In this document: positions 1,541 through 33,369 of the stretch, piece by piece | Position numbering within the stretch: the stretch's first letter is position 1 | How the letters are laid out: the number at the start of each line of letters is the position of its first letter | Assembly: GCA_002718655.1 (NCBI GenBank) | Contig: PBFM01000010.1 | Span: 1-40,047 of the forward strand | Direction of reading: 5' to 3' | DNA length: 40,047 nt | Origin: Fidelibacterota bacterium | GTDB lineage: Bacteria > Fidelibacterota > Marinisomatia > Marinisomatales > UBA1611 | Translations under genes and position numbers: made by a program | Notes under the pieces: generated by a model | Databases searched by the model: none | The model's input: the letters and a program-made list of their open reading frames with translations, nothing else | Told to the model about the DNA's origin: nothing

Positions 1541-3712
1541 ATGAGTTTAAAAAATTTAAATAGAATACAAAGGAAAGCGGTAGAGTCAATCGATGGCCCT
1601 GTTCTTATTTTTGCTGGAGCTGGTAGTGGGAAAACACGTGTACTGACTCATAAAATGTTTTACCTAATAAAAGAGAAATTATATAAGCCAGAAAATATAT
1701 TATCTGTTACTTTTACTAATAAAGCAGCAAAAGAAATGAAAAGTAGGGTTATGAAATTATTAAGAACTGATAATCTTCCCATCACAATTGGCACTTTTCA
1801 CTCAGTTTGTGCAAGATTATTAAGAAATGAATCTAGACATTTAGATATAAGCCCACATTTTGCAATTTATGATGTACAGGACCAATTAGATTTATTAAAA
1901 GTAATATTAAAAAATCTTAACATTCCAAAAGACCAAATAACACCCAATTTTGCTCGAAATCAAATTAGTTATTTGAAAAATAAAATGATAAGCCCTGATG
2001 CTCAACTACGAAAATCACGTACAATTAATGAAAAGAAATTTGTTGAGGTTTATAATGCTTATCAAAAATCCTTAGCTGACAATGATGCATTAGACTTTGA
2101 TGACTTATTGTTATTTCCCTTAGAATTATTTGAAAAAAACCCAAAAATCCTCTCCAAGTACCAAAATAGGTGGAAATATATATTAGTTGATGAATACCAA
2201 GATACAAATAGACCTCAATTTTTTTTCTTAACAAAGCTTGCTGAAAAAAATGAAAATATTTGCGTTGTAGGTGATGATGATCAATCAATTTATGGTTGGC
2301 GTGGTGCAGATGTGACTAATATACTGGATTTTGAAAAGTTCTTTCCAAGTTGTAGGGTTTTTACTCTTGAAAAAAATTATAGATCGACTCAGCAAATACT
2401 AGATGCAGCAACAGCCGTTGTGACCCATAACGATCGCAGAGCAAAGAAAAAATTATTTGCGGAGAATGGTTCAGGAGAACTATTAGGATTGATTGAAACA
2501 AGTGACGAACTTGAAGAATCAGATGCAATTATCTCTGCATTAGAGAAGGAAATAAAAATAAACAAACGCACTTTTAAAGATTTTTCAGTACTTTACAGGA
2601 CTAATGCGCAATCTCGCCCACTTGAAGATAGTTTTAGAAGAATGGGAATACCCTACAATCTAGTAGGTAGTATTAGATTTTATGACCGTAAAGAGGTAAA
2701 AGATGTTTTAGCATATTTAAGGCTTGTAATTAATCTTAAAGATACAATATCACTTAGAAGAGTGGTCAACTTTCCTGCAAGAGGAATTGGTTTGAAAACA
2801 ATGGATAAATGTGTTTACCAAGCTGAAAAAGATAAAATAGAATTATTTGAAGTTTTGAAAAAAGCAGATGAATTACCAATACGCGGAAAACAATCCGACT
2901 CATTAATTAAATTTTATAGTTTGATAAAAAAATATAATGGTTTAAGAAAAAAATTGAGTGCTAGTGAATTAAGTCAAAGTTTGATTGAAGAGGCAGGTAT
3001 TTTAACTCAATTTAAAAAATCTAAAAATATTGACGATAAAGAAAGATACGAAAATGTAAGAGAATTATTAAATAGCATAGATGAATTTTGTTCCAAAAGA
3101 GAAAATACTACATTAAGTGATTTCCTTGAGGAAGTTTCATTGTTAACGGATTTAGACCATTGGAATGATTCAGATAACAGGGTCACTTTAATGACAGTTC
3201 ATTCGGCAAAAGGTCTTGAGTTCCCAGTAATTTTTATCGCTGGTCTTGATGATGGATTATTTCCATTATTTTCATCAATTGAACAAAAAAAGGATTTGGA
3301 AGAAGAAAGAAGGCTTTTTTACGTTGCTCTTACAAGAGCTGAAGAGCGAGTGTTTTTACTTTATGCGACAAATAGGCGAAGAATGGGTGGTGAAAACGTA
3401 TTAGGGTTACCAAGTAGATTTATTAGTGAAATTCCGCCAGAATATTTAGATAGGATTGAATTTCAATCAGCATTAACTAGAAGAGTAATCTCTGATTCTG
3501 GACAAAAAAGAACTAAGATTAGAGTTAGGAGGACTGTAACAACCTTTGATGATTTTAAAGTTGGGGATATGGTAGAACATTCAATCTTTGGTATAGGTAA
3601 AATAATGGTCCTAAGTGGTACAGGTGAGAATCAGAGAGTAGGTGTCATATTTAAAGATGGTACAAAGAAAAAGCTGATAGTAAAATATGCAAATTTGACA
3701 AAGGTAAGTTGA
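1541..3712 (+). CDS. pcrA: ATP-dependent DNA helicase PcrA/UvrD (superfamily 1)
   Basis: A 3'-to-5' SF1A helicase for nucleotide excision repair, mismatch repair and clearing of replication or transcription blocks. All helicase motifs are visible: Q motif LNRIQRKAVE at the N-terminus, Walker A GAGSGKT (about 26-32), Walker B VDEYQDTN, motif III GDDDQSIYGWRGAD, motif IV YRSTQQI, motif V TVHSAKGLEF and motif VI VALTRAEER. At 723 residues it has the full PcrA length. The C-terminus ends in a Tudor-like module (VGDMVEHSIFGIGKI...GVIFKDGTKK), the RNA-polymerase-binding domain typical of PcrA/UvrD rather than Rep. The start codon directly abuts the mltG stop, so translation is probably coupled. PcrA versus UvrD naming is a matter of convention here. 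Confidence 0.96.
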   Translation: MSLKNLNRIQRKAVESIDGPVLIFAGAGSGKTRVLTHKMFYLIKEKLYKPENILSVTFTNKAAKEMKSRVMKLLRTDNLPITIGTFHSVCARLLRNESRHLDISPHFAIYDVQDQLDLLKVILKNLNIPKDQITPNFARNQISYLKNKMISPDAQLRKSRTINEKKFVEVYNAYQKSLADNDALDFDDLLLFPLELFEKNPKILSKYQNRWKYILVDEYQDTNRPQFFFLTKLAEKNENICVVGDDDQSIYGWRGADVTNILDFEKFFPSCRVFTLEKNYRSTQQILDAATAVVTHNDRRAKKKLFAENGSGELLGLIETSDELEESDAIISALEKEIKINKRTFKDFSVLYRTNAQSRPLEDSFRRMGIPYNLVGSIRFYDRKEVKDVLAYLRLVINLKDTISLRRVVNFPARGIGLKTMDKCVYQAEKDKIELFEVLKKADELPIRGKQSDSLIKFYSLIKKYNGLRKKLSASELSQSLIEEAGILTQFKKSKNIDDKERYENVRELLNSIDEFCSKRENTTLSDFLEEVSLLTDLDHWNDSDNRVTLMTVHSAKGLEFPVIFIAGLDDGLFPLFSSIEQKKDLEEERRLFYVALTRAEERVFLLYATNRRRMGGENVLGLPSRFISEIPPEYLDRIEFQSALTRRVISDSGQKRTKIRVRRTVTTFDDFKVGDMVEHSIFGIGKIMVLSGTGENQRVGVIFKDGTKKKLIVKYANLTKVS

Positions 3713-3717
3713 TTATT

Positions 3718-3765
3718 TATCAATTTAATTCATTATTGATAGTATTTAAATCTTAATTATATTAA
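3718..3765 (+). promoter_or_regulatory. Candidate fur promoter with overlapping dyad operator
   Basis: A perfect 7-base inverted repeat, TATCAAT (3718-3724) and ATTGATA (3735-3741), has a 10-base spacer. Its right arm contains TTGATA, which with TATTAA (3760-3765, 18-base spacing) makes a plausible promoter whose start would lie almost at the fur ATG. A dyad over the -35 element fits an operator for self-regulation. The sequence is not a good match to the classical Fur box, and the region is AT-rich, so this is only a candidate. Confidence 0.3.
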
Positions 3766-3773
3766 AATGAGTA

Positions 3774-4196
3774 ATGGGAAAAGCTAGTTCAATTATTTTA
3801 AATGAGGTTCTTAAAACAGAAGGTCTTCGTTATACAGAACAAAGACAAGCAGTTTGGGATGAGATTCTTCGAATTCAAGACCATAGAGATGCTGAGGATA
3901 TTTATCTAACACTTGTTAGAAAAAATATAAAAGTTTCAAGAGCTACAGTATATAGGACAATTGATGTTTTAGAAAAAAATAGATTAGTTAGAAAAATGGA
4001 TGTAGGAGATGGTCGAAGTTTATACGAACCTAGATTAAATAATGAGCACCATGATCATATGATCTGTATGGATACTGGAAAAATTATTGAATTTTACAAT
4101 GAGGATTTAGAGAACCTACAGGATAAAATTGCTAAAGAACATGGCTATAGAGTCATTAAACACGTTCATCAGCTTTTCGTGAAACCAATAAAGTAA
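3774..4196 (+). CDS. fur: Fur-family metal-responsive transcriptional regulator
   Basis: The 140 residues show the Fur layout: an N-terminal winged helix (about 10-80, recognition helix around VSRATVYRTIDVL) and a C-terminal dimerisation domain with the metal-binding run HHDHMIC (92-98) and GKIIEF. Fur represses iron uptake genes when loaded with Fe2+. The first CxxC of the structural zinc site is broken (Cys98, but Thr101 where the second Cys is usual), and the usual C-terminal second CxxC is absent because the protein ends HVHQLFVKPIK. His130 and His132 may still serve the regulatory site. Fur is the best guess over Zur or PerR, but the metal cannot be read from sequence. An ATG at 3767 is out of frame and closes after six codons, so 3774 is preferred. 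It converges on the GNAT gene with 9 bases between stops. Confidence 0.88.
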   Translation: MGKASSIILNEVLKTEGLRYTEQRQAVWDEILRIQDHRDAEDIYLTLVRKNIKVSRATVYRTIDVLEKNRLVRKMDVGDGRSLYEPRLNNEHHDHMICMDTGKIIEFYNEDLENLQDKIAKEHGYRVIKHVHQLFVKPIK

Positions 4197-4205
4197 TCTT
4201 TACTT

Positions 4206-4700
4206 CTAGTATAACTCTTTTTTCATTTTATAATAAGTGGTCTTCGATTTTTTTTCAAAAAATTTGTATCCAATCTTTTCAAAAAGTTTTATACTTATTT
4301 TATCTTTCTTATTTATGGAAACAACAATGTAGTTTAAGTTTATTTTCTGTCCATAATTTTCTATTTTTTTTGTGAGCTTTTGCCCAAATCCATTTCTTCT
4401 GAAAGCAGGATCAATAAAAAGATGAAAAATACTACCATAGCCATCAAAGATTTTTACGCTAACATGACCAATTATCCATTTATTTCTTTTTATTATTAAG
4501 GTTTTAATTTCATGATTTATGTCATCCTTGTAATAATACAATAACCACTTTTTATAATTAAATGGGAAGGTGACTTTTGGTGCGAAAAAGTTTAAGGTTT
4601 TAGGATTGCGTAACCATTTACTAAGTATTTTTTCCATAATTTTTTTATCATCTTTCGATAAATAAGAAATTTCTTCTATTTTATATTCTTGTAATGCCAC
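4206..4700 (-). CDS. GNAT-family N-acetyltransferase
   Basis: The 164-residue protein carries the acetyl-CoA-binding motif A of the GNAT fold, seen as LFIDPAFRRNGFGQKLTKKI (about 111-130), with the RRNGFG loop that grips the CoA pyrophosphate. A preceding strand (IFHLFID) and a later motif B region (SIKLFEKIGYKFFEKKS) complete the pattern. Substrate specificity cannot be inferred; small-molecule or protein N-acetylation are both possible. It stands alone on the minus strand, convergent with fur and divergent from the yhaM-like gene across a 49-base gap that must hold both promoters. Confidence 0.82.
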   Translation of the reverse strand: MALQEYKIEEISYLSKDDKKIMEKILSKWLRNPKTLNFFAPKVTFPFNYKKWLLYYYKDDINHEIKTLIIKRNKWIIGHVSVKIFDGYGSIFHLFIDPAFRRNGFGQKLTKKIENYGQKINLNYIVVSINKKDKISIKLFEKIGYKFFEKKSKTTYYKMKKELY

Positions 4701-4749
4701 AGTAAAAATTAGAATAAATTGGTTAATTAAAGGAAAAAAATTAGGAAGT

Positions 4750-5712
4750 ATGAAAAAATTAAAGTCTATTAAATCATTTGTTGAAGGCGAAAAAATTCAA
4801 GGATTTTTTTTATGCACGGAAAAACATCTAAGGCATACAAGAAATGGAGATATATATATTGACATAGAATTAAGAGATATAACAGGGCATATTTCAGGAA
4901 AGATTTGGAATAATATTTCAGCATTGAATGAAAAATTTGTAGCAGGAAATGCAGTTGCTATATCTGGAATTGTAGAACTATATCTTGAAAAAACTCAACT
5001 TAATGTTAAAAAAATAAATAAAGCTACAATTCAGCATTATGCACGTTATGGATTTGACCCCGCAAATGTTGTTCCTTCATCCAAGAAAAACACAGATAGA
5101 ATGTGGAAGGATATTAAATCTAATATTCGATTAATGAATGATAAATCACTTCGCCGGTTAGTAGAGTCCATATATCGTTCTTTCAAGAAAAAAATTATAA
5201 TTTTACCAGGCTCTATAAAATCTTATTATTCATTTCGTTCCGGGTTCATTGAGCATATTGTTTCCATGTTGAGATTGGCAAACAAAATCACTTCATCCTA
5301 CAATATTAATAAAGACATGGTAATTGCTGGAATTTTTCTACATGACATTGGAAAATTAAGAGAAATTAATTCTGAATATATTGCTGATTATACCATAGAG
5401 GGTAATTTATTAGGAAGTAAGGTATTAGGTAGAGATATTCTCATGGAAAATGCTAGGCATATAAAAAATCTAAATGAAATAGATTTATTAAAGCTTGAGC
5501 ACATCATTCTCGTATGTGGATTTAACAACGAGTTAAAATCAGAAGATATTCCTTCATTTTCTGAAGCATTATTTATTAAACAAATCAAAATGTTAGATAC
5601 CAGTATGAACATTATGGATATGGTCTATGATGAGGAAAAAGAAAATAGTACTTTTACAACAAGGTTTAATTATTTTGGAATACCCCTTTTGAAAGGAAAT
5701 GAAACTAGATAA
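4750..5712 (+). CDS. yhaM: YhaM-like 3'-5' exoribonuclease (OB-fold plus HD domain)
   Basis: The N-terminal half (about residues 12-95) reads as an OB-fold nucleic-acid-binding domain (GDIYIDIELRDITGHISGKIWN). The C-terminal half (about 160-290) is an HD phosphohydrolase domain with FIEHIVSMLRLANKI and the HD pair in IFLHDIGKL. This combination and the length of 320 residues match YhaM of Bacillus (314 residues), a Mn-dependent 3'-5' exonuclease acting on RNA and single-stranded DNA. A Shine-Dalgarno-like AGGAAG lies just before the ATG. The last 14 bases overlap the next gene, suggesting translational coupling to the membrane protein downstream although no functional link is obvious. Confidence 0.85.
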   Translation: MKKLKSIKSFVEGEKIQGFFLCTEKHLRHTRNGDIYIDIELRDITGHISGKIWNNISALNEKFVAGNAVAISGIVELYLEKTQLNVKKINKATIQHYARYGFDPANVVPSSKKNTDRMWKDIKSNIRLMNDKSLRRLVESIYRSFKKKIIILPGSIKSYYSFRSGFIEHIVSMLRLANKITSSYNINKDMVIAGIFLHDIGKLREINSEYIADYTIEGNLLGSKVLGRDILMENARHIKNLNEIDLLKLEHIILVCGFNNELKSEDIPSFSEALFIKQIKMLDTSMNIMDMVYDEEKENSTFTTRFNYFGIPLLKGNETR

Positions 5713-6220
5713 GATTGTAAAAGCTTCAATTTTTGCTGGTACTTCCATTGGACTAGGATTTGCCTTTGTTTTTATACCAAACGTAGAATTCATATCCGTA
5801 ACAGTTTTCATTTCAGGTATGTACTTGGGATTCCCATTTGGCATCCTTATTGGATTTTCAACTATGTTAATTTATTCTGTTCTAAATCCAATGGGTTCAG
5901 GGTTAATTCATTTGCCACTTTTATTTAGTCAATTAATTGCAATGGCTGGGATTGGAGGTCTAGGGTCAGCTTTCAGAAAAATTTTTAGGAATATGGGTAT
6001 CAAGACTCTTATGCTGGTTTCTGGAATTTTAGGCTTCATATGCACTGTATGGTATGATATGCTAACAAGCTTATCATACCCATTGAGTGCAGGTTACAGT
6101 TGGGAAGAATCTATGGCATTTGCAATTTCAGGTTTTATGTTCACTATTATTCACGTAATCTCAAACTGCATTATTTTTTCAATTGTAGTACCAGGGTTTA
6201 TAAAAAGGTTAAATAATTAA
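5699..6220 (+). CDS. ECF-transporter S-component-like membrane protein
   Basis: The 173 residues are almost entirely hydrophobic with about five or six membrane helices. The N-terminal stretch (KIVKASIFAGTSIGLGFAFVFIPNVEFISVTVFISGMYLG) with Pro-Asn before helix 2, and the Gly-rich GIGGLG segment, resemble substrate-binding S subunits of energy-coupling factor vitamin transporters. Those subunits dock on a shared EcfT/EcfA module, which is not in this window. The gene overlaps yhaM by 14 bases and ends one base before the beta-barrel gene, forming a tight run that converges on a riboswitch-controlled BtuG-like gene. That context makes cobalamin or a precursor a reasonable guess for its substrate, by inference only. 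Confidence 0.55.
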   Translation: MKLDKIVKASIFAGTSIGLGFAFVFIPNVEFISVTVFISGMYLGFPFGILIGFSTMLIYSVLNPMGSGLIHLPLLFSQLIAMAGIGGLGSAFRKIFRNMGIKTLMLVSGILGFICTVWYDMLTSLSYPLSAGYSWEESMAFAISGFMFTIIHVISNCIIFSIVVPGFIKRLNN

Positions 6221-6221
6221 T

Positions 6222-7829
6222 ATGAGATTGTTGATAATAGTATTATCAAGTTTTATTTACGGTAACAACCTTTCCTCATTACCTTTTGATTGGTCTGGCC
6301 AATTTGGACTATTTAATCATCAAGGAAGTCTTTTATGGAATAATGATTGGTATTCAAAATCACTTTTTTTTGATGGTACATGGTCTGTTTATCCGACAAT
6401 GTATGGTGATGAAATAAAAAAGGATTTTAATTTTAGCCGAACAAAGCATAAAGATATTTTTGGGAAAAATGATAATCAAGAAAATGATTCATACTTTAAA
6501 TATGATCAAGGTGATTATCTTCTTGATAGATTTTCTTGTGGAATAATATTAAAAACAAAAAGAAGACTTGCAAGTTTTAATGGTTTTAAAAGGACCTATT
6601 CGGGCAATAAAAACCAATATGCAAACAATTCTTATCAGCCACAGCAGCAATCATATGTATTTTCATACAAATCAAATGAGGATCAACAAAACATAGGTTT
6701 CACATTAGGTCATTTTGATACATATTCAGGATTTCCTGATGGAACTGAGATAGGTTTAATTGATAATCAGATAATTACTTCAAATCTTAACTGGGGCAAT
6801 AAATTATTGACTTCATATATAACGTTATCCTTAGATCAGTTTTATCAAAAGTATAAAACAAAACATACACTTTCTAGTTATCATAAATCTAGATTCCTAA
6901 TTAGAAAAAATTTTGAATTAGATTTAGTTTTACCAACCAATAATCAAAACTTATTTGCTAATATTTCGCATAATTCTCGATCTATAAACATAGATACTAC
7001 AGTTAATTTAAAATGGAATAATTATTTAATTGGATATGGCAATGATTCAACAAAAATTATCTTTAGTATTTTCCATCTCTCTAATAAGTTTTTATTTCAG
7101 ACATCTTTAGATTTCAAGAAAAAAATAGGGCCATTCGTAGCAAAAATTAATTATGACATTGATTATAAACCCATACATCCATACTATGTTCTGTTTCTAA
7201 ATGAAAATATTACCAAAAAAGAAATTCAAAGAAAAAATGCTAGTGCACTTATTTATTATAAATTCAAAAATGGTCGTATTTCTTCATCATTTTATCAAAT
7301 AAATGATGAAGAAGAATTTTGGAGCATGATTGATGGTAATACTGTAAACAATCTTGTGCACAGAATGCTTTCCCTTGATTACAGTTCTATTATTTTTAAT
7401 AATACTGAAGTTAAATTGAAATATAACATCCAAAATTCAGATGGATTATACTCCGGCGGGATTAAAAATTGGCTAGAAATTGGCCTAAGTTCAAATTTTA
7501 AGGTCTTCGATGATAAAATGATGATTAATCTAAATTGTGATTTTATTCAATTAAGTTATGGAACCAATAAAAGAACATTAAATCCAATAGAGATGGTGCC
7601 AGACTTGAATAGTTTTGATATATATGATAATAATCCTGTTAATGTAATCAATACGAGCATATCTGCTAAAGTAAATAATTTTATCATTTCATATGAGTCA
7701 TATAACTTTATTGATATAATCTATAATTCAATCAATCTCAATCGAGGGAATAGTGTATACTATGACCCGACCATACCAGATCTAGGCCACCAAACAATTA
7801 TCTCAATAAAATGGGCGTTCAAGGATTAA
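6222..7829 (+). CDS. Putative outer-membrane beta-barrel protein, unknown function
   Basis: A short hydrophobic N-terminus (about residues 1-15, MRLLIIVLSSFIYGN) looks like a signal peptide. The remaining 520 residues alternate polar and aromatic residues in many short strands (for example QQSYVFSYKSN, KLLTSYITLSLDQ) and end in a strand reading HQTIISIKWAFKD, typical of outer-membrane barrels. No TonB box or plug domain is recognisable, and the length is short for a TonB-dependent receptor. I do not recognise the family. It follows the S-component-like gene by one base and its 3' end overlaps the convergent BtuG-like gene by 4 bases, so a role in vitamin uptake is possible but unproven. A porin-like or assembly function is equally open. 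Confidence 0.6.
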   Translation: MRLLIIVLSSFIYGNNLSSLPFDWSGQFGLFNHQGSLLWNNDWYSKSLFFDGTWSVYPTMYGDEIKKDFNFSRTKHKDIFGKNDNQENDSYFKYDQGDYLLDRFSCGIILKTKRRLASFNGFKRTYSGNKNQYANNSYQPQQQSYVFSYKSNEDQQNIGFTLGHFDTYSGFPDGTEIGLIDNQIITSNLNWGNKLLTSYITLSLDQFYQKYKTKHTLSSYHKSRFLIRKNFELDLVLPTNNQNLFANISHNSRSINIDTTVNLKWNNYLIGYGNDSTKIIFSIFHLSNKFLFQTSLDFKKKIGPFVAKINYDIDYKPIHPYYVLFLNENITKKEIQRKNASALIYYKFKNGRISSSFYQINDEEEFWSMIDGNTVNNLVHRMLSLDYSSIIFNNTEVKLKYNIQNSDGLYSGGIKNWLEIGLSSNFKVFDDKMMINLNCDFIQLSYGTNKRTLNPIEMVPDLNSFDIYDNNPVNVINTSISAKVNNFIISYESYNFIDIIYNSINLNRGNSVYYDPTIPDLGHQTIISIKWAFKD

Positions 7830-8839
7830 TTGTTTTTCCAAATTGCATAATCATTTGGAAGTGCACCAACAGATATGAAGGTCTCTAATTCGCCTATTTC
7901 ATTGTATGTAAAAACCGTATCTGGGGCATTGTAATCACTTGTTCCTAGATATAGAATATCGTCATTATCATGAAATGCAGAATAAGGTGTTCTTGTTGAT
8001 AAGGAACCTATTTTAGCCGAAAGATTTAAACTCAAATCATCATCAAGTGGTGCTATCCCACCACTAGTTGTTCTGTAGACGATTTCATTAATTTTTAGTA
8101 TTCCTCCTCCACAAACTATTCCTGGACCATAATTATTTATCGTAACCTCACCAGTTTCTAAATCTAACTTACTTGATCCGTAGTATGCAGTATACCAATC
8201 TGAAGAATAAAAGGTCCTTGATATCCATAAAAAATTATTATCGATAATAAGTTGCTGGGGGCCACGACCTACTTCATATGTTTGTAAAATACTATTAGAA
8301 GAGATGTCAATTTTTACGACACTGGAACCTTGATTTGTATCATATAACTCTAAATTAGGTAAGCTTATCCAAAGATATTGCCCATCATATACGATATCTT
8401 CTGGAATACCTTGGAGAGGTATGGATGTTTCAATTGCATATGTATTGAGATTCAAAATTTTAACATCCATTGAGTTCCAATTAGTAAAATATAATTTATC
8501 ATTAACGATTACCATATTTCTGGGGCTCGAATTGTTAGTGGATATTTCTATACCAGGTAAATTAAGGCCAGATTCTGTAATGGTATATTTTTTGATCAAA
8601 TGGCTATTATTAGCAATTACAAAAAGTTTATCACCATCTACTAGTAGTGATTGAACGACGTCTCCAATATTTTCAACGGATTGTATTACCTGGTTATTTT
8701 TTATTACTGCTATTGAACCATCACTATTTCCAAATGTGCCTTCAGATGATATAAACAAGATATCTGAATCTTCTGTTGTTTTTATTGAATCTTCGCAACT
8801 TATATATAGTAGAATAAAAAGAGGTATGACTTTTCTCAT
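7826..8839 (-). CDS. BtuG-like beta-propeller surface lipoprotein (DUF5074/YncE type), cobalamin-regulated
   Basis: The start is placed at the ATG at 8839, not the GTG at 8893 used by the ORF track. From 8839 the protein (337 residues) begins with a lipoprotein signal peptide, MRKVIPLFILLYISCEDS, with probable lipidated Cys15, whereas the longer form runs into the riboswitch leader. The mature part has beta-propeller repeats of about 45 residues: ILFISSEGTFGNSDGSIAV, SPRNMVIVNDKLYFTNWNSMDVKILNL, IPEDIVYDGQYLWISLP, GPQQLIIDNNFLWISR. The N-terminal SEGTFG...GSI pattern resembles DUF5074 and the BtuG proteins of Bacteroides, surface lipoproteins that capture vitamin B12 and hand it to BtuB. The upstream cobalamin riboswitch strongly supports that role. 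The exact affinity or partner is inferred. Confidence 0.78.
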   Translation of the reverse strand: MRKVIPLFILLYISCEDSIKTTEDSDILFISSEGTFGNSDGSIAVIKNNQVIQSVENIGDVVQSLLVDGDKLFVIANNSHLIKKYTITESGLNLPGIEISTNNSSPRNMVIVNDKLYFTNWNSMDVKILNLNTYAIETSIPLQGIPEDIVYDGQYLWISLPNLELYDTNQGSSVVKIDISSNSILQTYEVGRGPQQLIIDNNFLWISRTFYSSDWYTAYYGSSKLDLETGEVTINNYGPGIVCGGGILKINEIVYRTTSGGIAPLDDDLSLNLSAKIGSLSTRTPYSAFHDNDDILYLGTSDYNAPDTVFTYNEIGELETFISVGALPNDYAIWKNN

Positions 8840-8864
8840 ATTGTTTTCCAAATTTAATTCAGGT

Positions 8865-8909
8865 GTGGGATATATAATGACAAATAATCCCACTTTTAAC
8901 CCGAAAGTG
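8865..8909 (-). promoter_or_regulatory. Expression-platform hairpins of the cobalamin riboswitch
   Basis: On the minus strand two stems compete. The first, CACTTT (8909-8904) with AAAGTG (8896-8891), has loop CGGGTTA. The second, GTGGGAT (8893-8887) with ATCCCAC (8871-8865), has a 15-base loop. They share bases 8891-8893, so only one can form fully. The loop GGGTT of the first stem is complementary to AACCC (9010-9006) inside the aptamer, which fits the L5-L13 kissing contact of cobalamin riboswitches. No U-tract follows, so control is more likely at translation than by termination. Confidence 0.5.
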
Positions 8910-8924
8910 TTATTTAAGAAGCTT

Positions 8925-9085
8925 CATATAATCAGGTCTCCTGGCTTATGCAGTAATCAACCAATTCCGTCTTCTTCAATACACAAAAGGTAAAAAATGA
9001 CTCTTGGGTTTGGTATTCTGCAAATACAGTAGCGGGCACTGCACTCGACTCAAACGAGTTTCCCTGTTTTAAATGAAAGTTATAT
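8925..9085 (-). promoter_or_regulatory. Cobalamin riboswitch
   Basis: On the minus strand the conserved elements of the B12 box appear in order: AACAGGGAA (about 9067-9059), then GCAGTGCCCGCTACTGT (about 9043-9027), a variable region with AACCC, and the hallmark AGCCAGGAGACCTG (8946-8933). It lies in the leader of the BtuG-like lipoprotein gene, about 90 bases upstream of its ATG, and is expected to reduce expression when B12 is plentiful. Boundaries are approximate because stem P1 was not modelled. Together with its promoter it explains the 331-base gap between 8839 and 9171. Confidence 0.93.
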
Positions 9086-9093
9086 TCATAAAA

Positions 9094-9122
9094 ATTTTAC
9101 ACAAAATAAAAATTGTTATCAA
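9094..9122 (-). promoter_or_regulatory. Sigma-70 type promoter of the riboswitch transcript
   Basis: On the minus strand TTGATA (9122-9117) and TAAAAT (9099-9094) are spaced by exactly 17 bases. Transcription would start near 9087, just before the riboswitch aptamer and about 250 bases before the lipoprotein ATG. The position relative to an independently recognised riboswitch makes this more convincing than motif matching alone. Confidence 0.6.
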
Positions 9123-20273: not shown

Positions 20274-21596
20274 ATGAGAAATGTAACAATTGTAGGTGCT
20301 GGTTATGTAGGATTGGTTAGTGGAGCAGGAATTTCTGATTTTGGCCACATAGTAACGTGTGTTGATATATCTAAAAATAAAATCAAAGAGTTGAAAAATG
20401 GTAAAATACCAATATACGAACCTGGTTTAGATGAATTAATAAAAAAAAATGTAAAAGCAGGTAGATTATTTTTTGAAAACAATATAAAAGATGCTATATC
20501 AAATGCAGATATAATTTTTATTGCTGTAGGGACACCAATGAATCAAGATGGTAGTGCCGATATAACTGCAGTAAAAGATGTAGCCAAATCAATTGGTGAA
20601 AATTTAAATAACTATAAGGTTATTTGTACTAAAAGTACAGTCCCAATAGGTACGGGGAAACTGATTATTGATATTATAAAAAATTATAAACCTAATGATA
20701 TTAGATTTGATTATGTCTCAAACCCTGAATTTTTAAGGGAAGGTTCTGCTGTTAAAGACTTTTTATGGCCAGATCGAGTTGTGATTGGTGCACAAAGTCA
20801 ATCTGCTTTTAATATTATGAAAGAAGTATATGGACCATTATATATAAATGAAACGCAAATTATACATACAGGTGTTGTAACTGCTGAGATGATAAAGTAT
20901 GCTTCAAATTCCTTTTTAGCTTTGAAAATAAGCTATATAAATGAAGTCGCCAATTTATGTGAAGCAATAGGTGCTGATGTACATCAAGTATCAAATGCTA
21001 TGGGAAAAGATGGAAGAATAAGTCCTAAATTTTTGCATCCAGGCCCTGGTTTTGGAGGATCATGTTTTCCGAAGGACACGAAAGCATTTCTTTCTTTTTC
21101 AGAAAGCTATGGAAATAAGTTAAGAACTATACAAGCTGCAATTGAAACAAATAAAAATCAAAAGCAAAGAATGGTTGAAAAAATAAAGAAACTTATCGGT
21201 GGAAATTTAAAAAATAAAAAAATTGCAATTTTAGGATTGGCTTTTAAACCAAATACCAATGATGTGAGAGAATCTGCATCAATACATATGATTGAATCCT
21301 TAAATCGTAAAAGGTGTATAATAAATGCATTTGACCCAATTGCAAATGATGAGATGAAGAAAATTTTTCCTAATTTAAATTATAAAAACTCTTGGCAAGA
21401 AGCATGTAAAGGTGCAGATGGGGTAGTAGTGATGACTGAATGGAATGAGTTTAGAGGTATAAGTCTCTCATTATTAAAATCACTTTTAAAACGACCTATT
21501 TTATTGGATACTAGAAATATATTTGATATAGAAAAACTAATAAAGCATAATTATAAATTTGATAATGTTGGCAGGAAATATTTAGATGAAAATTGA
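20274..21596 (+). CDS. ugd: UDP-glucose 6-dehydrogenase
   Basis: Oxidises UDP-glucose to UDP-glucuronate using two NAD+, supplying an acidic sugar for surface polysaccharide. The Rossmann start VTIVGAGYVGLVSGAGISDFGH, the segment NPEFLREGSAVKDFLWPDRVVIG, and the active-site GPGFGGSCFPKDTKAF with the catalytic Cys are all present. A second Rossmann domain begins at KKIAILGLAFKPNTNDVRESAS. At 440 residues it fits the family. The details favour UDP-glucose over GDP-mannose or UDP-ManNAc dehydrogenase, though specificity within this superfamily needs care. A Shine-Dalgarno-like GGAAGA occurs about 20 bases upstream. The end overlaps rfbC by 11 bases. Confidence 0.92.
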   Translation: MRNVTIVGAGYVGLVSGAGISDFGHIVTCVDISKNKIKELKNGKIPIYEPGLDELIKKNVKAGRLFFENNIKDAISNADIIFIAVGTPMNQDGSADITAVKDVAKSIGENLNNYKVICTKSTVPIGTGKLIIDIIKNYKPNDIRFDYVSNPEFLREGSAVKDFLWPDRVVIGAQSQSAFNIMKEVYGPLYINETQIIHTGVVTAEMIKYASNSFLALKISYINEVANLCEAIGADVHQVSNAMGKDGRISPKFLHPGPGFGGSCFPKDTKAFLSFSESYGNKLRTIQAAIETNKNQKQRMVEKIKKLIGGNLKNKKIAILGLAFKPNTNDVRESASIHMIESLNRKRCIINAFDPIANDEMKKIFPNLNYKNSWQEACKGADGVVVMTEWNEFRGISLSLLKSLLKRPILLDTRNIFDIEKLIKHNYKFDNVGRKYLDEN

Positions 21597-22131
21597 AAAT
21601 TCTTATCTTAATGAAGTAAAAATAATCACTCCTGATATCTATTTTGACGAAAGAGGAAATTTTTCTGAAGTATATAAATCCTCAGTATTTAAAAATAATG
21701 GCATAAGAGCAAAATTTGTTCAGGATAATGAAGTTAGATCAAAGTACGGAGTTTTAAGAGGATTGCATTATCAATTAAAATCACCTCAAGGCAAACTTAT
21801 TCGCTGTATTTTAGGAACAATCATTGATGTTGCGGTTGATATTCGAATTGGATCACCAACATTTGGTAAACATATTAAACTAGAATTATCAGCAGATAAT
21901 AAAAAAATGTTATATATACCTGAAGGGTTTGCACACGGATATCTTGTAACATCAAAAAAATCAATTGTTATTTATAAGTGTACAACATACTATGATGAGA
22001 ATGATCAGTATGGTGTTATTTGGAATGATAAAGATTTAGATATAAATTGGAATTTTGAAACACCAGCTCTATCTCAAAAAGATAAAACTTTACCAATGTT
22101 AAAAATAAATAAAAATCTCCCAAAATATTAA
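21586..22131 (+). CDS. rfbC: dTDP-4-dehydrorhamnose 3,5-epimerase
   Basis: Third enzyme of the dTDP-L-rhamnose pathway, a cupin-type epimerase. The signatures [32 protein letters not shown] (catalytic His in RGLHYQ), [15 protein letters not shown] and [12 protein letters not shown] are all visible. The 181 residues are normal. Its start overlaps the end of ugd and rfbB follows after 2 bases. It is present although no rfbD reductase gene is in the cluster. Confidence 0.96.
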
Positions 22132-22133
22132 AA

Positions 22134-23186
22134 ATGAAGAAAATTCTTGTAACTGGTGGTTGTGGATTTATAGGTTCAAATTTTATTAAATCTGTTATTA
22201 AAAAGGATGAATCTATTTTTATTGTGAATGTTGATAAACTAACATACGCTGGAAATTTGTCAAATTTACAGGATATATCTAGCAGTAATTTTCTGCATAT
22301 AAAAGGTGATATTTGTGATTCAGAATTAATATACTCCATATTTAAAAAATATTCCTTTGATGCAGTAGTGCATTTTGCTGCTGAAAGTCACGTTGATAGG
22401 TCTATTGATGGTCCGTCTAAGTTTGTTAAAACGAACATTGTTGGTACGATGAACTTATTAGAAAATTCGAGAAAATTCATAACGGAATCAAAAGTTAAAA
22501 AATTCAGATTCGTACATATTTCTACGGATGAAGTATATGGGTCACTTACTGATGATATGAAGTTTGTAGAAACGACAAAGTATGATCCTAGTTCACCATA
22601 TTCTGCATCAAAAGCTGGAGCCGATCATTTAGTTAGATCATGGTATCGGACATTTGGTCTCCCCACATTAATAACTAATTGTTCAAATAATTATGGTCCA
22701 TTCCAATTTCCAGAAAAACTAATCCCTTTAATGATAATAAATGCTATGATGGATAAACCCTTACCTATTTACGGTAAAGGGGAAAATATAAGAGATTGGT
22801 TGTATGTTACTGATCATTGTGACGCTATTTGGTCTGTTCTAAATAGTGGTCTTGTAGGAGAGACTTACAATATTGGAGGTGATAACGAAATTAAGAATAT
22901 AGATATTGTTACTAAAATTTGTGAAATTCTTGATGATTTATTACCAAGGGATGATGGGAAAATGCATTCAGAATCAATTACTTTTGTCAAAGATCGTCCT
23001 GGTCATGATTTCCGTTATGCGATAGATGCAAAAAAGATCAGAACTGAATTAGGTTGGAAACCAAAGGAGTCTTTTGATACAGGAATCAGAAAAACTATAG
23101 AGTGGTATCTTTGTAATAAGTCTTGGTGGAAAGCAATACAAGATCAAACATATGGGCAAGAAAGATTAGGAACATTAAATAAGTGA
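22134..23186 (+). CDS. rfbB: dTDP-glucose 4,6-dehydratase
   Basis: Second enzyme of the pathway, converting dTDP-glucose to dTDP-4-keto-6-deoxyglucose. It is an extended short-chain dehydrogenase with the NAD motif [11 protein letters not shown] (about 7-17), the dTDP-sugar family segments [14 protein letters not shown] and [15 protein letters not shown], the STDEVYG active-site segment and [15 protein letters not shown] (catalytic Tyr and Lys). The 350 residues match the family. The stop overlaps the GTG start of rfbA by 4 bases. Confidence 0.97.
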
Positions 23187-24073
23187 AGGGAATTATTTTA
23201 GCAGGAGGAAGTGGAACAAGGTTGTACCCAATTACCTCTGTAGTATCAAAACAATTACTTCCCATATATGATAAACCAATGATATACTATCCTCTTTCTA
23301 CTTTGATGCTTTCAGGTATAAATGATATTTTAATTATCTCGACAATTGAAGATACGCCTAGATTTCGTGATTTACTCGGTGATGGAAATCAATTAGGTAT
23401 AAAAATTACTTATAAAGTACAGCCATCACCAGATGGTTTGGCCCAAGCTTTTATATTAGGGGAAGAATTTATTGGTAATGATTCGGTTTGTTTAATTTTA
23501 GGAGACAATATTTTTTTTGGACACGGATTATCAGAATTATTAAATCGAAGTAAAAATATTGTTAATTCAAATGGTGATGCAGTCATCTTTGGATATGAAG
23601 TCAAAGACCCAGAACGTTATGGAGTGGTTACTTTTGATAGCAAAAATAATGTAAAGAGCATTATAGAAAAACCAAAAAAACCAAAATCAAATTATGCTGT
23701 AGTAGGATTATACTTTTATCCAAACAACATCATTGAAATTGCAAAAGATATTAAGCCTTCAGATAGAGGTGAATTGGAAATAACGTCAGTCAATGAAGTT
23801 TTTCTTAGCAGAAGACAGTTGACTGTTGAATTGATGGGTCGTGGATATGCTTGGCTTGATACAGGAACTCAACGTGCGATGAATAACGCTTCGAATTTCA
23901 TCAAAACTATTGAAGATAGACAAGGATTGAAAATAGCATGCCTCGAGGAAATTGCATATCAAAAAGGCTTTATTAATATCAATCAATTAGATGATTTATC
24001 TAATCAATTTTCTAATGATTATGGTCAGTATTTGAAAAATTTGGTAGCAAGAAATAAAAAAATAAAATCTTAA
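23183..24073 (+). CDS. rfbA: Glucose-1-phosphate thymidylyltransferase
   Basis: First enzyme of the dTDP-sugar pathway, joining dTTP and glucose-1-phosphate. The nucleotidyltransferase signature [17 protein letters not shown] is at the very start, then [37 protein letters not shown] and VVGLYFYPN. Start codon is GTG, overlapping the rfbB stop (GTGA). At 296 residues it is the usual length. It is the last plus-strand gene of the cluster and converges on wzi with only 3 bases between stops. Confidence 0.97.
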
Positions 24074-24076
24074 TTT

Positions 24077-25417
24077 TTAATGATTGTAATTCACACCTAT
24101 CTCGATTGCAAGTTTGTCTATGCTAATTATGCTCACATCACTTTCATTTAAAATAAAATTTGAATTAATAAATTTTATATTATTTACTGCAAAAGACAAT
24201 TCTAATCCATCTATACTGGTTAATCTATCAATTTTTAGTAAAGTAAAAGCCCTCTTTTGATATCCGTTTTCATAACGCTTATCATAAGTATCATTATAAT
24301 GAGAGTTTATCATTTCCCTAGTCATCGAGCCACGCTTTACATATGAATATTCAAATGTTATTCTGAATTTTTCATATAAAGATAAAAATTTTAAAAGTAA
24401 CTCTTCTGAGTGTGGTCCTGCCCAGAATCCCAGTGGTGAATTATGGGAGTAATAATCATTGATATTATATTTATGTTTATAAATACGTTGGTCTGTCCAA
24501 TTGTATTCTGCAGTAAGAAAAATATCTTTTGATCTTATTTTTTTAGCATTTATTCCTATTTGCCATGCAAACCAATTATGATTTTTTTCGTTCAATATCC
24601 ACTCAGGAGTAACTTCATCCATAAAGAAGCCTAAATATATTTTTTTATTCGCTGAAAGTTTGTAACTCATATCGAACCCCATTTGAAGATTATCAGTGTC
24701 ACCTAGATAATTCTCAATTGGATAAAATGGTGCCATCGGTATTAGATAATGGATGTCAAGTGAACGTGATGCATAAATTACAGTCTCATTTAAACTTAAT
24801 GAGAAATCTCCTGTAGGAGACCATTCAATCTTATGTGATGCGATGCTTCTTGGTATATTTATTGTTCGATGACTGAAATCATTATCGTAATAAATCATTC
24901 TTGATGAGTCTTCTATACCACTATTTAAAAAGCCATGGAAATAACTTAAAATTAAGTTTTCATTTAATTTCCACTCTAACCCAAATTGTGGATAAGACGG
25001 GGCTTTCGAAGAGACTTGTAATGCTCTAACACCATACCCCCAATGTCTGTCAAAGATACCAAAATCAAATTCCAATACATTTGTGATATATGCTATCCTA
25101 GCATTGATATATTCACTCCAATATCCAGGGGCATCTTTTGATTTATCAAGATATGGAAGACTCTTTATTGGAGAAAAATGATAAAGTTCAGATTTGATTT
25201 CACCAAAAAAACCTAGTTGCGTGTATTGCAAATCAATATTCCATAAGTCATTATCGAAATTTGCTTTCAAGCCAGCTCCAAAATATGTCAAGGGAGTTTT
25301 TTGATAAATCCAATCACTTCCAGTTGAAGAGTAAATTGAAAAAAAAGTTGGTTTTATTTTAATGTCATTCGAAAAAATCAAATTAATTCCTAGAAAAAAA
25401 AAATAATTGTTTAACAA
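24077..25417 (-). CDS. Wzi-like outer-membrane capsule assembly protein
   Basis: A short hydrophobic N-terminus (MLNNYFFFLGINLIF) can serve as a signal peptide. The rest is strand-rich with the Wzi family region FDFGIFDRHWGYGVRALQVSSKAPSYPQFGLEWKLNENLILSYFHGFLNS, corresponding to the W-G-x-G...L..S..AP.f motif seen in capsule assembly Wzi proteins. Wzi is an 18-stranded outer-membrane barrel that helps hold or organise capsule at the surface. The 446 residues fit, and its place at the end of the wza-wzx-wzy locus, 9 bases after the sugar transferase, supports the call. The extreme C-terminus does not end in Phe. Confidence 0.8.
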   Translation of the reverse strand: MLNNYFFFLGINLIFSNDIKIKPTFFSIYSSTGSDWIYQKTPLTYFGAGLKANFDNDLWNIDLQYTQLGFFGEIKSELYHFSPIKSLPYLDKSKDAPGYWSEYINARIAYITNVLEFDFGIFDRHWGYGVRALQVSSKAPSYPQFGLEWKLNENLILSYFHGFLNSGIEDSSRMIYYDNDFSHRTINIPRSIASHKIEWSPTGDFSLSLNETVIYASRSLDIHYLIPMAPFYPIENYLGDTDNLQMGFDMSYKLSANKKIYLGFFMDEVTPEWILNEKNHNWFAWQIGINAKKIRSKDIFLTAEYNWTDQRIYKHKYNINDYYSHNSPLGFWAGPHSEELLLKFLSLYEKFRITFEYSYVKRGSMTREMINSHYNDTYDKRYENGYQKRAFTLLKIDRLTSIDGLELSFAVNNIKFINSNFILNESDVSIISIDKLAIEIGVNYNH

Positions 25418-25426
25418 AATTCTTAA

Positions 25427-27403
25427 TTATTTACTCCTCGCACCTAAAAAAATAATATTTGATAGTGCCTTTATAAAGTATTTCAAATCGGTAAATAATG
25501 GTGATTTTTCTTTTTGGTTTAAATATGTTCTTTCACTTTCAATTATCGCATCGAATGACTTTGGTAGGTCTGCGTAATATGGTGGAATTAATCCAGGCTT
25601 GAAATTTATTCGCTTTTCTTGTAAATCTTTAGGATAAAGGCTGTAATAGTGTTCACTGAGGGCTCTAACTCCTATAAAATTCAAGTCACCTTTTAACCAA
25701 TTATATAGTTGTGGAATTTCATCAATAAAATATTTTCGAAAAAATTTCCCCCATGATGTGATTCTATAATCCCCTTGTAATTTCCCTGTTTTATCTAAGT
25801 GATATTTATCATAAATCTCACCCTGAATAAACTCACTATAGGGATACATTGTTCTTATTTTATATATGTAAATTAGTTTTCCTTCATATCCTATTCTTTT
25901 CAATTTTACTATAGGACCGTATGAAGGAGAGGTTTCTTTTGAAATAGTTTTCTTTTTCTTGCATACAAAGTATAATCTATCTGAAATGAGATTTTCATCT
26001 ATAATTTCAAATCCACAAAATGAAAGTCTTCCAAATATTTCTGATTTTGATAATATTCGATTTTTTCCCTTGGTTAAAATGAAATATATTTGTTTAGTAA
26101 TCATAAGTTTTGGAAATACTCTGTGAAAAAGAAAATGAAAAGGAAGTAATATTAAATAGAGAAAATGAGGCATTTTTGATCTAAGATGTATTCTAAATTT
26201 TTCCAATGGAACAAAATTACCTACTAAAATTCCACCACTTTCTAGTTTTTTATAATTAGCCAGTAAATATTCATTTATTCTTCTACAATCATTTAATCTA
26301 TTAACATTAATTATTAATTTTTTTGAATCATTGAATAACAGTTTAATATTTACGGTTTGATCTGTATTGAAAATTGAAACTTTATTTTTTTCAATTTGTT
26401 CATCAGTGATTGTACTCCAAATGAATTTTATTAATTGATTTTGATAAGCGAAACCAAATGTTTTGATGCTATCTTTTAACAATTCTCTTGTATATGTATT
26501 TTTATTATTTTCTCCAATATTTTCGATTTCCAATTCATCTTGTCCCTCATCTGTAAGAGGAATTTTATTATATCTCTTATTCCTAATTCCATTTTTTTTT
26601 GATTCTCCAAAAAAGAATAAATAAAAAGCAGTTATTTCAATACCAGAATGGAAAATCCCAGCGTTGAAAATTAGAGAAATTGAATCTGAATCGATTCTCA
26701 ATATGTAATAAAATAAGGTTATAAAAAGAATTGTTAATATAGATGCCTTGATATAAGGTGCAATTTCATAGTAGTGATTAATAGAATTTGGTTCCTTATA
26801 TCTATTAGTTAAAAGGGTTCCTAAACCCCAAGATGCTATTAATATTAGTAGATTTTGTTCGTGCATTAGACCATATTGAAAAGACCCATATTTTATGTAA
26901 TTGGTACCAATGTATGTAAAAAAAAGCAATAATATTCCTGGTATAAGCCATTTAATATAAAATTTATTGATGCCCTTTATTTCTATTCTTTTGTCACTGT
27001 ACTTTACTTTGACATTAGTAGATTGAATCATAGCCTTAAATAATATTGAAACAAAAATATCATATAAAAACAAAATAATTGTTAGGGTAAGTATGAATAA
27101 TCTTGAAGTACTCCATAGGTTAGAAAAAGATATAATTATTACTACAAATAATATGCATATAAGAGTTGACCAGAATGTTATTCTTAATGCAAGCCAAAGT
27201 GGTTTTTGTATTAATGCAATTGTTCTTTCATAGTAAAAAGATGTGAAATTTCTAAAAATTAAAAAAATAAAGTATAAGTATAAGTAATTACCATATGGAA
27301 TAAATACTGAGAACTTTTCATAGTGTAAAATTGAAAAAAAGATAGAAAAGAAAGTTAAATCTATTGTAAAAAGAATACTTTGTAGGGTTTTTTTGTGTAT
27401 CAT
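25427..27403 (-). CDS. Large polyprenyl-phosphate sugar-1-phosphate transferase (initiating enzyme)
   Basis: Transfers a sugar-1-phosphate to undecaprenyl phosphate at the inner membrane, starting each repeat unit. The C-terminal third (about residues 485-655) is the bacterial sugar transferase domain: GKLIYIYKIRTMYPYSE, RITSWGKFFRKYFIDEIPQLYNWLKGDLNFIGVRAL (Asp-Glu of the active site in FIDEIPQ) and FKPGLIPPYYADLP. The N-terminal part (about 1-260) has several membrane helices. A middle region (about 290-480, including INVNRLNDCRRINEYLLANYKKLESGGILVGNF) looks like a degenerate methyltransferase-like or nucleotide-binding fold known from Bacteroidota sugar transferases of this size. The specific sugar is unknown. 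Two tandem AGGATG copies surround the start codon. Confidence 0.88.
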   Translation of the reverse strand: MIHKKTLQSILFTIDLTFFSIFFSILHYEKFSVFIPYGNYLYLYFIFLIFRNFTSFYYERTIALIQKPLWLALRITFWSTLICILFVVIIISFSNLWSTSRLFILTLTIILFLYDIFVSILFKAMIQSTNVKVKYSDKRIEIKGINKFYIKWLIPGILLLFFTYIGTNYIKYGSFQYGLMHEQNLLILIASWGLGTLLTNRYKEPNSINHYYEIAPYIKASILTILFITLFYYILRIDSDSISLIFNAGIFHSGIEITAFYLFFFGESKKNGIRNKRYNKIPLTDEGQDELEIENIGENNKNTYTRELLKDSIKTFGFAYQNQLIKFIWSTITDEQIEKNKVSIFNTDQTVNIKLLFNDSKKLIINVNRLNDCRRINEYLLANYKKLESGGILVGNFVPLEKFRIHLRSKMPHFLYLILLPFHFLFHRVFPKLMITKQIYFILTKGKNRILSKSEIFGRLSFCGFEIIDENLISDRLYFVCKKKKTISKETSPSYGPIVKLKRIGYEGKLIYIYKIRTMYPYSEFIQGEIYDKYHLDKTGKLQGDYRITSWGKFFRKYFIDEIPQLYNWLKGDLNFIGVRALSEHYYSLYPKDLQEKRINFKPGLIPPYYADLPKSFDAIIESERTYLNQKEKSPLFTDLKYFIKALSNIIFLGARSK

Positions 27404-27421
27404 CCTATGGAATCATCCTAT
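27399..27421 (-). repeat. Tandem 10-base repeat over the sugar-transferase start
   Basis: On the minus strand ATAGGATGAT occurs twice with TCC between (27421-27412 and 27408-27399). Each copy carries AGG-ATG, so the ribosome-binding and start signal is duplicated. The upstream ATG (27416-27414) opens a three-codon frame, ATG ATT CCA TAG, that closes just before the real start codon at 27403. Confidence 0.85.
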
Positions 27422-27623
27422 TTTGCTTGCAATGGGGATTAAATTAAAGGATGGAATACATATGATACTGTGTCCAGGATCACATTCTTGTAGGGTAAGT
27501 ATAGCAAAACGCATTTGGCATTTATTCTTTTTTTCTTAAAATGCTAACGTTCTACACCGATAAACTTTTCTCCTACTTACATACCAAATATAGCTATTTT
27601 TAAATTGATAAGGAAAAAAATTG
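27404..27623 (-). other. 220-base intergenic leader inside the capsule locus
   Basis: This is the only long gap within the minus-strand capsule genes. I see no open frame of note. A 7-base inverted pair, GTAAGTA (27495-27501) and TACTTAC (27574-27580), is widely spaced and may be chance. Low-complexity T/A runs occur around 27527-27538. It may hold a separate promoter for the sugar transferase and wzi, or a leader controlling them, but no clear -35/-10 pair, JUMPstart or ops element was recognised. Confidence 0.4.
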
Positions 27624-28694
27624 TTATTCTATTAATAATTGTTTTTCAGAATTTTCAAACATTTCTTTCTTTGACTCAGGATAGTTCAATATAAACCATT
27701 TCATAAATTTTGTTACATCAATTGTTTTTTTTATAAACTTATCTCTTTTTTGTATTTGATTTGTTTTGATTTTTTTATTTTTTATGATGCTAATAGCTTT
27801 TTCTTTAACACCCTCAGTTGAATTAAAAATATATACTAACCCATTTTTCTCTTGCTCTTCCAAGGTACCTGCAGTTAGGGTATTTATATAAATTGCAGGT
27901 GTGCCTAAAATCGCGCATTCAGATGCCATAGTCGCACCCTCACCAATAAATAAAGTTGCATGGAATAGAATGCTATGAATTTCATTTGCAGTTGCATTTA
28001 ATTTATTTTTTCCTAGTTGAACTGGTATATCTCCCTCAGAAGAAATAAATACTGGAGCATAATTTTCAATTTCTTTAACAAGTTTAATTAAAAAATTTAA
28101 TTCAAAACCTTTTTGGCCAATATCATGGCTGGCATTCCAAGAAACTAATCGAATTATTACGTATTTTTGATTTAACGCTAAATTCAAATTGGTAAAAAAA
28201 TTATTATTTGGTTGGAAATATTTAGGGTGCAGGTAACATTGCTCCATAAATCCGTTAAAACGAATGTGCTTATTTCCTAAATGATTTTTATATGCATTAG
28301 GTGTTAGTACTATTTGAGAGAATGGTAAAAATGACATAATGCCAATTTTAGCGTTCTCAGTATCAGTAAATGTAATGTGAGGTTTTTTTAAAAAAAATGC
28401 CACCTGCGCAGCATAAGGTGATGCAAAACTTAGGAATAGATTAGGCTTGAATATTTTTGCTATTTTGTATAACTGATAGTTTGCTTTGAATAAATAAAAA
28501 AATTTCCCGATTAATCCTCTCTTGCCTTCGCCTCTTGATACGTATTGTATACTGTAATGATCTAGTAGATTATGAGTAACATCTTTATTACGTGCAGTTA
28601 TTAAAACTTTGTGACCTTCATTTTTTATCTCCATAATAAAATTTTTAAAATAATGCACATGTGCAGGATGCCCTATATCAAGAAAAATTTTCAT
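27624..28694 (-). CDS. DUF354-family glycosyltransferase-like protein
   Basis: The N-terminus MKIFLDIGHPAHVHYFKNFIMEIKNEGHKVLITARNKD is the hallmark of DUF354 proteins, which have a GT-B-like two-domain fold related to UDP-GlcNAc 2-epimerases and glycosyltransferases. A later segment, HSILFHATLFIGEGATMASECAILGTPAIYINTL, matches the sugar-nucleotide-binding C-terminal half. The 356 residues fit the family. It has no signal peptide or membrane helix and likely acts on the cytoplasmic face during repeat-unit assembly. Its start overlaps the GT4 gene stop by 4 bases. Donor and acceptor sugars are unknown. Confidence 0.85.
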   Translation of the reverse strand: MKIFLDIGHPAHVHYFKNFIMEIKNEGHKVLITARNKDVTHNLLDHYSIQYVSRGEGKRGLIGKFFYLFKANYQLYKIAKIFKPNLFLSFASPYAAQVAFFLKKPHITFTDTENAKIGIMSFLPFSQIVLTPNAYKNHLGNKHIRFNGFMEQCYLHPKYFQPNNNFFTNLNLALNQKYVIIRLVSWNASHDIGQKGFELNFLIKLVKEIENYAPVFISSEGDIPVQLGKNKLNATANEIHSILFHATLFIGEGATMASECAILGTPAIYINTLTAGTLEEQEKNGLVYIFNSTEGVKEKAISIIKNKKIKTNQIQKRDKFIKKTIDVTKFMKWFILNYPESKKEMFENSEKQLLIE

Positions 28695-29611: not shown

Positions 29612-29612
29612 A

Positions 29613-30836: not shown

Positions 30837-30850
30837 ATGATTGTTTCATT

Positions 30851-33338: not shown

Positions 33339-33369
33339 ATTTTTAATCTTTTATCAAATTTTTTTGTAT

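Follow-up and report, generated by a model that had tools for sequence, protein, structure and literature searches.

Can a BtuG-type lipoprotein take part in the capture of vitamin B12 (cobalamin) at a locus that has no gene for the outer-membrane receptor BtuB? BtuG proteins have been described as confined to the Bacteroidetes and as nearly always encoded beside btuB, as were 106 of 112 homologues (PMC6143338). The question is raised by contig PBFM01000010.1 of a Fidelibacterota bacterium (GenBank assembly GCA_002718655.1), of which positions 1 to 40,047 of the forward strand were analysed; this stretch of 40,047 nucleotides is called the window and its numbering is used throughout. Here, the gene for a predicted β-propeller lipoprotein lies behind a cobalamin riboswitch with no btuB beside it. 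The comparisons described below give good support for a BtuG-type lipoprotein under B12 control in this ocean phylum, one that would bind the vitamin at the cell surface. The features on which the argument turns are:

7826–8839, minus strand: BtuG-type β-propeller lipoprotein of 337 amino acids (aa), lipobox Cys15.
8914–9113, minus strand: cobalamin riboswitch aptamer (RF00174), the assembly's only match (68.2 bits, E 6e-15).
8935–8945, minus strand: B12 box GCCAGGAGACC of the riboswitch, intact, read directly and from the RF00174 alignment.
8891–8909, minus strand: hairpin CACTTT-CGGGTTA-AAAGTG of the expression platform, probably P13/L13.
9094–9122, minus strand: sigma-70-like promoter sequence TTGATA-17-TAAAAT, 10/12 match, not above chance.
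8111–8113, minus strand: codon of Cys243, a cysteine invariant in the btuB-less BtuG clade.

The open reading frame (ORF) runs from an ATG at 8839 to a stop at 7826, and the encoded N-terminus, MRKVIPLFILLYIS-C-EDS, looks like a signal peptide whose lipobox is relaxed; Cys15 follows the hydrophobic leader and is conserved in all family members covering that position. When the protein was searched against the PDB with phmmer, its best matches were nine BtuG chains (E 1e-9 to 9e-6), and a profile of 28 relatives matched all PDB BtuG chains (BtuG3, BtuG2 and BtuG1) over nearly the full length (E 7e-18 to 7e-12). An AlphaFold2 (AF2) model of the lipoprotein (predicted local distance difference test, pLDDT, 88; predicted template modelling score, pTM, 0.86) was compared with 350,542 PDB chains: the top 16 were all BtuG, most of them B12 complexes (TM-score 0.73–0.79, E 1e-18 to 4e-15), and the first match outside this group came at E 4e-11, among generic propellers. 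Profile and predicted fold thus agree with the preliminary description, which had called the protein BtuG-like, and its standing as a true BtuG relative is well supported. As to the resemblance to DUF5074 proposed at the same time, the window protein scores only 23.2 bits, under the cut-off of 27.2, while 17 of the 28 relatives match at E up to 0.01. The orthologues L052, L053 and L059–L062 have no lipobox; L052 carries a C-terminal sorting domain of the type IX secretion system (T9SS), and the others match it in length and C-terminal pattern, the domain scan having covered L052 alone.

The cobalamin riboswitch that had been claimed for the locus is borne out. The RF00174 alignment spans the full model (1–189), scores well above the gathering score of 31.5 bits and is the only one in the 2.1-Mb assembly; the B12 box and a downstream regulatory hairpin accompany it, as they do in relatives. 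Between the end of the aptamer and the ATG lie 74 bases. The core of the hairpin, CTTTCGGGnnAAAAG, recurs after the aptamer and ahead of the start codon at 14 of 17 btuB-less btuG loci inspected and abuts the likely ATG in several of the 14, which is why the riboswitch likely acts on translation initiation; no terminator was found. The promoter, which had been called well placed, can be read in the sequence but does not exceed chance: it is one of two promoter-like sites observed, against 3.7 expected in shuffled sequence, and the −10 box of TTGATA-17-TAAAAT falls within the 5' strand of the modelled aptamer stem P1.

The gene had also been said to sit alone, with no recognisable btuB adjacent. 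Searches with Pfam and NCBIfam agree that btuB is absent from the window locus, but the gene is less solitary than it seemed, as it appears to be the remnant of a riboswitch-btuB-btuG operon and has genes for a BtuB-like barrel and a CbrT-like protein beside it. Across the taxonomic order, a gene order is conserved that comprises an OB/HD-domain protein, a protein like the S-component of energy-coupling factor (ECF) transporters, the barrel, a slot for B12 genes, NlpC/P60, HNH, TrpS, ScpA and ScpB, the last four names coming from reading the sequences. The slot is filled by riboswitch-btuB-btuG in many sister genomes, with the riboswitch directly upstream of btuB (in G013, for example, riboswitch 6377–6550, btuB 4255–6279 and btuG 3254–4228); the best model for the TonB receptor in this slot is that of the B12 receptor, TIGR01779, though far below cut-off. 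In the window clade the slot holds riboswitch and btuG only. The window, 11 close relatives and G012 all have the aptamer directly before the gene; in the two remaining genomes, G020 and G026, the btuG-like gene lies at a contig end. In other genomes, such as G007, G008, G017, G033, G034, G040 and G045, the slot consists of riboswitch and btuB, directly convergent with the barrel gene; with the window protein as single query, BtuG was not detected in these genomes.

A profile built from the sister btuB genes gives E <1e-77 in 37 btuB-bearing genomes and finds no orthologue in any of 15 genomes of the window clade, four of which are 92–96% complete; the best matches there (E 2e-19, partial) are paralogues that btuB-bearing genomes also have. 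The window's own genome, G000, a bin 80% complete, encodes 18 plug-bearing receptors, none of them convincingly BtuB and none matching TIGR01779 at the level of the barrel, so that the search for btuB elsewhere in the genome also found no convincing candidate. Loss of btuB from a riboswitch-btuB-btuG operon in the window clade is supported by this pattern, subject to the incompleteness of the genomes. Because neither locus nor clade yielded a btuB, the protein is classed as BtuG-type and not as canonical BtuG; an operon with btuB is found in the sister genera and not at the window locus. With btuB apparently lost, the vitamin must have some other way into the cell, and the gene for it may lie next door.

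The btuB-less proteins form a marine subfamily of their own, uncoupled from BtuB. A scan of 84,980 species genomes returned 36 relatives, from Fidelibacterota and from pelagic Flavobacteriia/Cryomorphaceae without adjacent btuB, plus one Aquimarina with a classical riboswitch-btuB-btuG arrangement; as the scan patterns came from the btuB-less group, the count cannot be used to gauge forms linked to btuB. A maximum-likelihood tree unites the btuB-less proteins in one clade (support 100/98). Some 30 genomes keep their gene open and conserved, with 40–63% identity and invariant motifs, and the BtuG of btuB-linked sister genera is just 30–38% identical to the window clade. Two divergent Neomarinimicrobiota copies, L119 and L120, group with the flavobacterial ones (94/90), hinting at transfer between phyla; L119 has a weak cobalamin riboswitch about 0.8 kb upstream. 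Some flavobacterial genomes contain BtuB-like receptors of about 610 aa at unlinked sites, and uncoupling there therefore represents unlinking and not certain loss.

Control of the gene differs between the two phyla. SAM-II riboswitches normally control methionine and S-adenosylmethionine (SAM) genes, and one lies directly upstream of four flavobacterial BtuG-type genes, L107, L112, L116 and L117, which make up two close pairs. At L109 and L114, the BtuG-type gene is divergently oriented to a metH split in two, with metF after it; L109 has a SAM-II riboswitch before metH, and L115 has the first metH piece and the SAM-II riboswitch in common with it. L108, L111 and L114 were scanned against Rfam with lax thresholds, and no overlooked riboswitch turned up. 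The two predicted kinds of control, one answering to cobalamin and the other to SAM, come together in B12-dependent methionine synthesis.

Close-orthologue records carry the names Ca. Marinimicrobia, Neomarinimicrobiota or Fidelibacterota, so that the host is a marine Fibrobacterota–Chlorobiota–Bacteroidota (FCB) lineage, as had been supposed, and gene content indicates that the host needs B12. G000 encodes MetH and the C-terminal (B12) domain of methylmalonyl-CoA mutase. CbiC was found in none of 61 related genomes searched, which argues that the corrin ring is not made by known pathways. A search of 23 genomes for MetE-type synthases came up empty in 21, and G000 yielded none; the only match among carriers of the btuB-less gene is a short MetE-like protein of 346 aa in G051 (contig 25:134327-135310). 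With nearly all tested genomes devoid of MetE, methionine can be made only with the help of B12. Of the 11 genomes tested for BtuC-type permeases, 8 have none. The single FecCD permease of G000 was considered as BtuCD and rejected: its operon also encodes an ABC ATPase, a periplasmic binding protein and a protein like HugZ/HutZ, and so points to heme uptake; this operon, on contig 6 (L087), includes a truncated TonB receptor as well.

How the vitamin would be held can be judged from BtuG2, whose loop Asn54–Thr64 and loop β5A grip B12 "like a pair of pliers" (PMC10404256). The counterpart of Asn54–Thr64 in the window protein is SEGTFGNSDGS at residues 32–42. The Glu and Gly of this loop, Pro-Arg 106–107, Glu147 and Tyr211 are invariant in btuB-less and btuB-linked groups alike; Tyr211 corresponds to Tyr239 of BtuG2, and Tyr166 takes the place of Trp194. 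Among the BtuG2 contacts, then, loop 54–64, Tyr239 and Tyr335 are largely retained, Trp194 is changed to Tyr and Trp272 is lost, while the equivalent of Tyr316 is ambiguous, as two alignments disagree. The placement of Trp272 and Tyr316, in the second half of the protein, differs between MAFFT and HMMER, and claims on these positions are kept cautious for that reason. The PDB profile alignment sets Cys243 beside Trp272, the residue that narrows the upper-ligand cavity of BtuG2. All btuB-less proteins that cover the position have Cys243, and the 15 Fidelibacterota btuB-linked proteins all lack it, most of them having Tyr or Phe there. BtuM uses a cysteine to ligate cobalt (PMC6072759); that Cys243 might do likewise is speculation by analogy, in a half of the protein where the alignments disagree.

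Two genes converge on the btuG-like gene from the other side:

6222–7829, plus strand: predicted outer-membrane barrel of 22 strands, like a TonB-dependent transporter without plug (AF2 model and Foldseek).
5699–6220, plus strand: membrane protein like an ECF transporter S-component, CbrT-like, one base upstream of the barrel gene.

The barrel gene and the btuG-like gene overlap by 4 bp, tail to tail. The AF2 model of the barrel, built from 12 sequences, has 22 strands at a mean pLDDT of only 71, and its top Foldseek matches are BtuB and then other TonB-dependent transporters (E 3e-12). The protein has no match in Pfam or NCBIfam, the plug domain PF07715 is found in 0 of 23 family members, and the site of the plug offers only about 70 residues against about 130 for a plug. 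Single copies of the gene occur in 19 of the 21 Fidelibacterota genomes tested (all but G046 and G074), mostly next to the B12 slot, and none in the Flavobacteriia tested. As the gene also occurs alongside an intact btuB, it cannot be regarded simply as a replacement for btuB. The sole PDB match of the 5699–6220 protein is chain A of 6FNP (ECF-CbrT; E 1.3e-4, 160/173 profile positions); its match to PF12822 is sub-threshold and one member of its family grazes a FolT-family model (E 0.0025). An EcfT-like gene beside truA offers a faint sign of an ECF module in relatives and was not found in G000. The CbrT-like gene is usually coupled to the barrel gene, and has been lost beside it in several genera (g10, g11). 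A functional link to B12 may be suggested, tentatively, for each of the two genes. Farther off in the window, at 20274–35100, a reading of the ORFs indicates a surface-polysaccharide cluster, with UDP-glucose dehydrogenase, dTDP-sugar genes, a flippase, glycosyltransferases, and chain-length and export proteins.

The data presented above lead us to propose that the gene encodes a riboswitch-repressed, surface-exposed lipoprotein that captures B12 for MetH and the mutase. Low cobalamin would leave the riboswitch open and the lipoprotein would be made; its lipobox would direct it to export and to the cell surface, a location supported by the orthologues that carry a T9SS surface-sorting domain instead; and a corrinoid would be bound on the face bearing the EGNFG, NNSH, SPR and E147/Y211 motifs common with BtuG2, as homology and fold suggest. 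The captured vitamin would finally supply MetH and methylmalonyl-CoA mutase, whose genes are present. Taken jointly, regulation, export, binding and use in this form are probable. In between, B12 might be handed to an outer-membrane barrel other than BtuB, most plausibly the plugless neighbour or else one of the 18 other TonB receptors, and it might cross the inner membrane without BtuCD, possibly via the CbrT-like ECF component. That these elements make up one BtuB- and BtuCDF-independent route, from an uncoupled BtuG with a cysteine that may ligate cobalt through the plugless barrel to the CbrT-like component, is a bolder proposal that we regard as rather unlikely in its entirety.

Several observations weigh against the capture model. 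At the 303 positions aligned with BtuG2, about 24% of residues are identical, and Trp272, which contacts the upper ligand, is not conserved. BtuG2 of Bacteroides thetaiotaomicron needs BtuB2 for membrane retention and for hand-over of B12 (PMC6143338, PMC10404256), and a BtuB2-like partner was found neither at the locus, nor in the clade, nor among the 18 receptors. For the steps across the two membranes, the evidence is gene order and weak homology; that the barrel lies beside the B12 slot could be due to nothing more than shared synteny. Lastly, a role connected with methionine or a precursor would also suit the SAM-II riboswitches of the flavobacterial genes. This last point, together with the absence of an adjacent btuB and the altered upper-ligand loop, speaks for a protein that captures methionine, one of its precursors or another methyl donor, and that low cobalamin or SAM switches on, as happens with metE in other bacteria. 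Such a function is improbable given the fold, the near full-length profile match specific to BtuG and the retained ligand-loop motifs; moreover, some flavobacterial copies adjoin B12-dependent metH, and with MetE missing from nearly all tested genomes methionine synthesis itself would call for B12.

The missing partner may also be read in two other ways. A normal BtuB, working with the lipoprotein as in Bacteroides, may have been overlooked in an incomplete bin or be too divergent to recognise: G000 is a fifth short of complete and has plug-bearing receptors to choose from, and BtuB-like receptors occur unlinked in some Flavobacteriia. Its absence from all 15 clade genomes, the nearly complete ones included, set against the ease with which the profile detects it in 37 relatives, and the lack of a barrel-level TIGR01779 match among the receptors of G000 make this a possibility that we doubt. 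It is compatible with B12 capture and touches the hand-over step only, and its probability overlaps that of the capture model. If instead no partner exists, as the failure to find a BtuB orthologue in the clade or any other partner might suggest, the protein could be a vestige of btuB loss, a remnant with no role in uptake or a mere store of B12 hoarded at the surface. This is very improbable for a gene that has stayed open with invariant motifs in so many genomes, that keeps a riboswitch with conserved B12 box and hairpin, and that was acquired or kept in a second phylum under a different riboswitch.

The capture model for the window protein would, if the protein binds B12, make surface capture of a scarce vitamin a marine trait too, and imply that BtuG can function without an operon-encoded BtuB, which raises the question of the outer-membrane door; the neighbouring, unrecognised barrel is a direct candidate for it. 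As judged by sequence, BtuG is present in another, marine phylum in two forms, with btuB and without, and the form without btuB also in pelagic Flavobacteriia. The suggestion that BtuG-type capture extends beyond the gut is thereby upheld in so far as a BtuG relative and a cobalamin riboswitch occur together in marine Fidelibacterota, where capture itself is predicted. In the open-access literature we found no paper on BtuG in marine phyla and none that treats TonB-type barrels without a plug as a natural family.

Among known systems, the closest are BtuG1, BtuG2 and BtuG3 of B. thetaiotaomicron (PDB 8BLW, 8BMX/8BMY and 8OKV/8P97; PMC6143338; PMC10404256), with which the window protein shares the seven-bladed propeller of its model, the predicted lipoprotein character and the predicted control by a cobalamin riboswitch, as well as a ligand loop (NEGNF...NAT there, SEGTF...DGS here), SPR, and the equivalents of Glu180 and Tyr239. 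It differs from them in having Tyr for Trp194, in belonging to Fidelibacterota and not to Bacteroidota, and in the lack of a btuB in its operon or detected in its genome; from its btuB-linked relatives it differs in the upper-ligand loop, where an aromatic residue is replaced by the invariant cysteine of the btuB-less clade. The riboswitch-btuB-btuG operons of sister Fidelibacterota (such as L049 and L055) occupy the same slot, with the same riboswitch and orthologous neighbours on both sides, but contain the btuB that the window clade does not and a BtuG of the low identity given above. The predicted barrel of 6222–7829 equals BtuB (E. coli 1NQG; B. thetaiotaomicron 8P98) in size and strand number and has it as best fold match, but has no plug domain, no Pfam match and less than 12% identity. 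Although the similarity of the 5699–6220 protein to CbrT reaches only E 1.3e-4 and an ECF module is seen only weakly in relatives, CbrT of ECF-CbrT (6FNP, PMC5997447) is the one PDB entry that it matches by sequence, and the region of the PNV motif is common to both.

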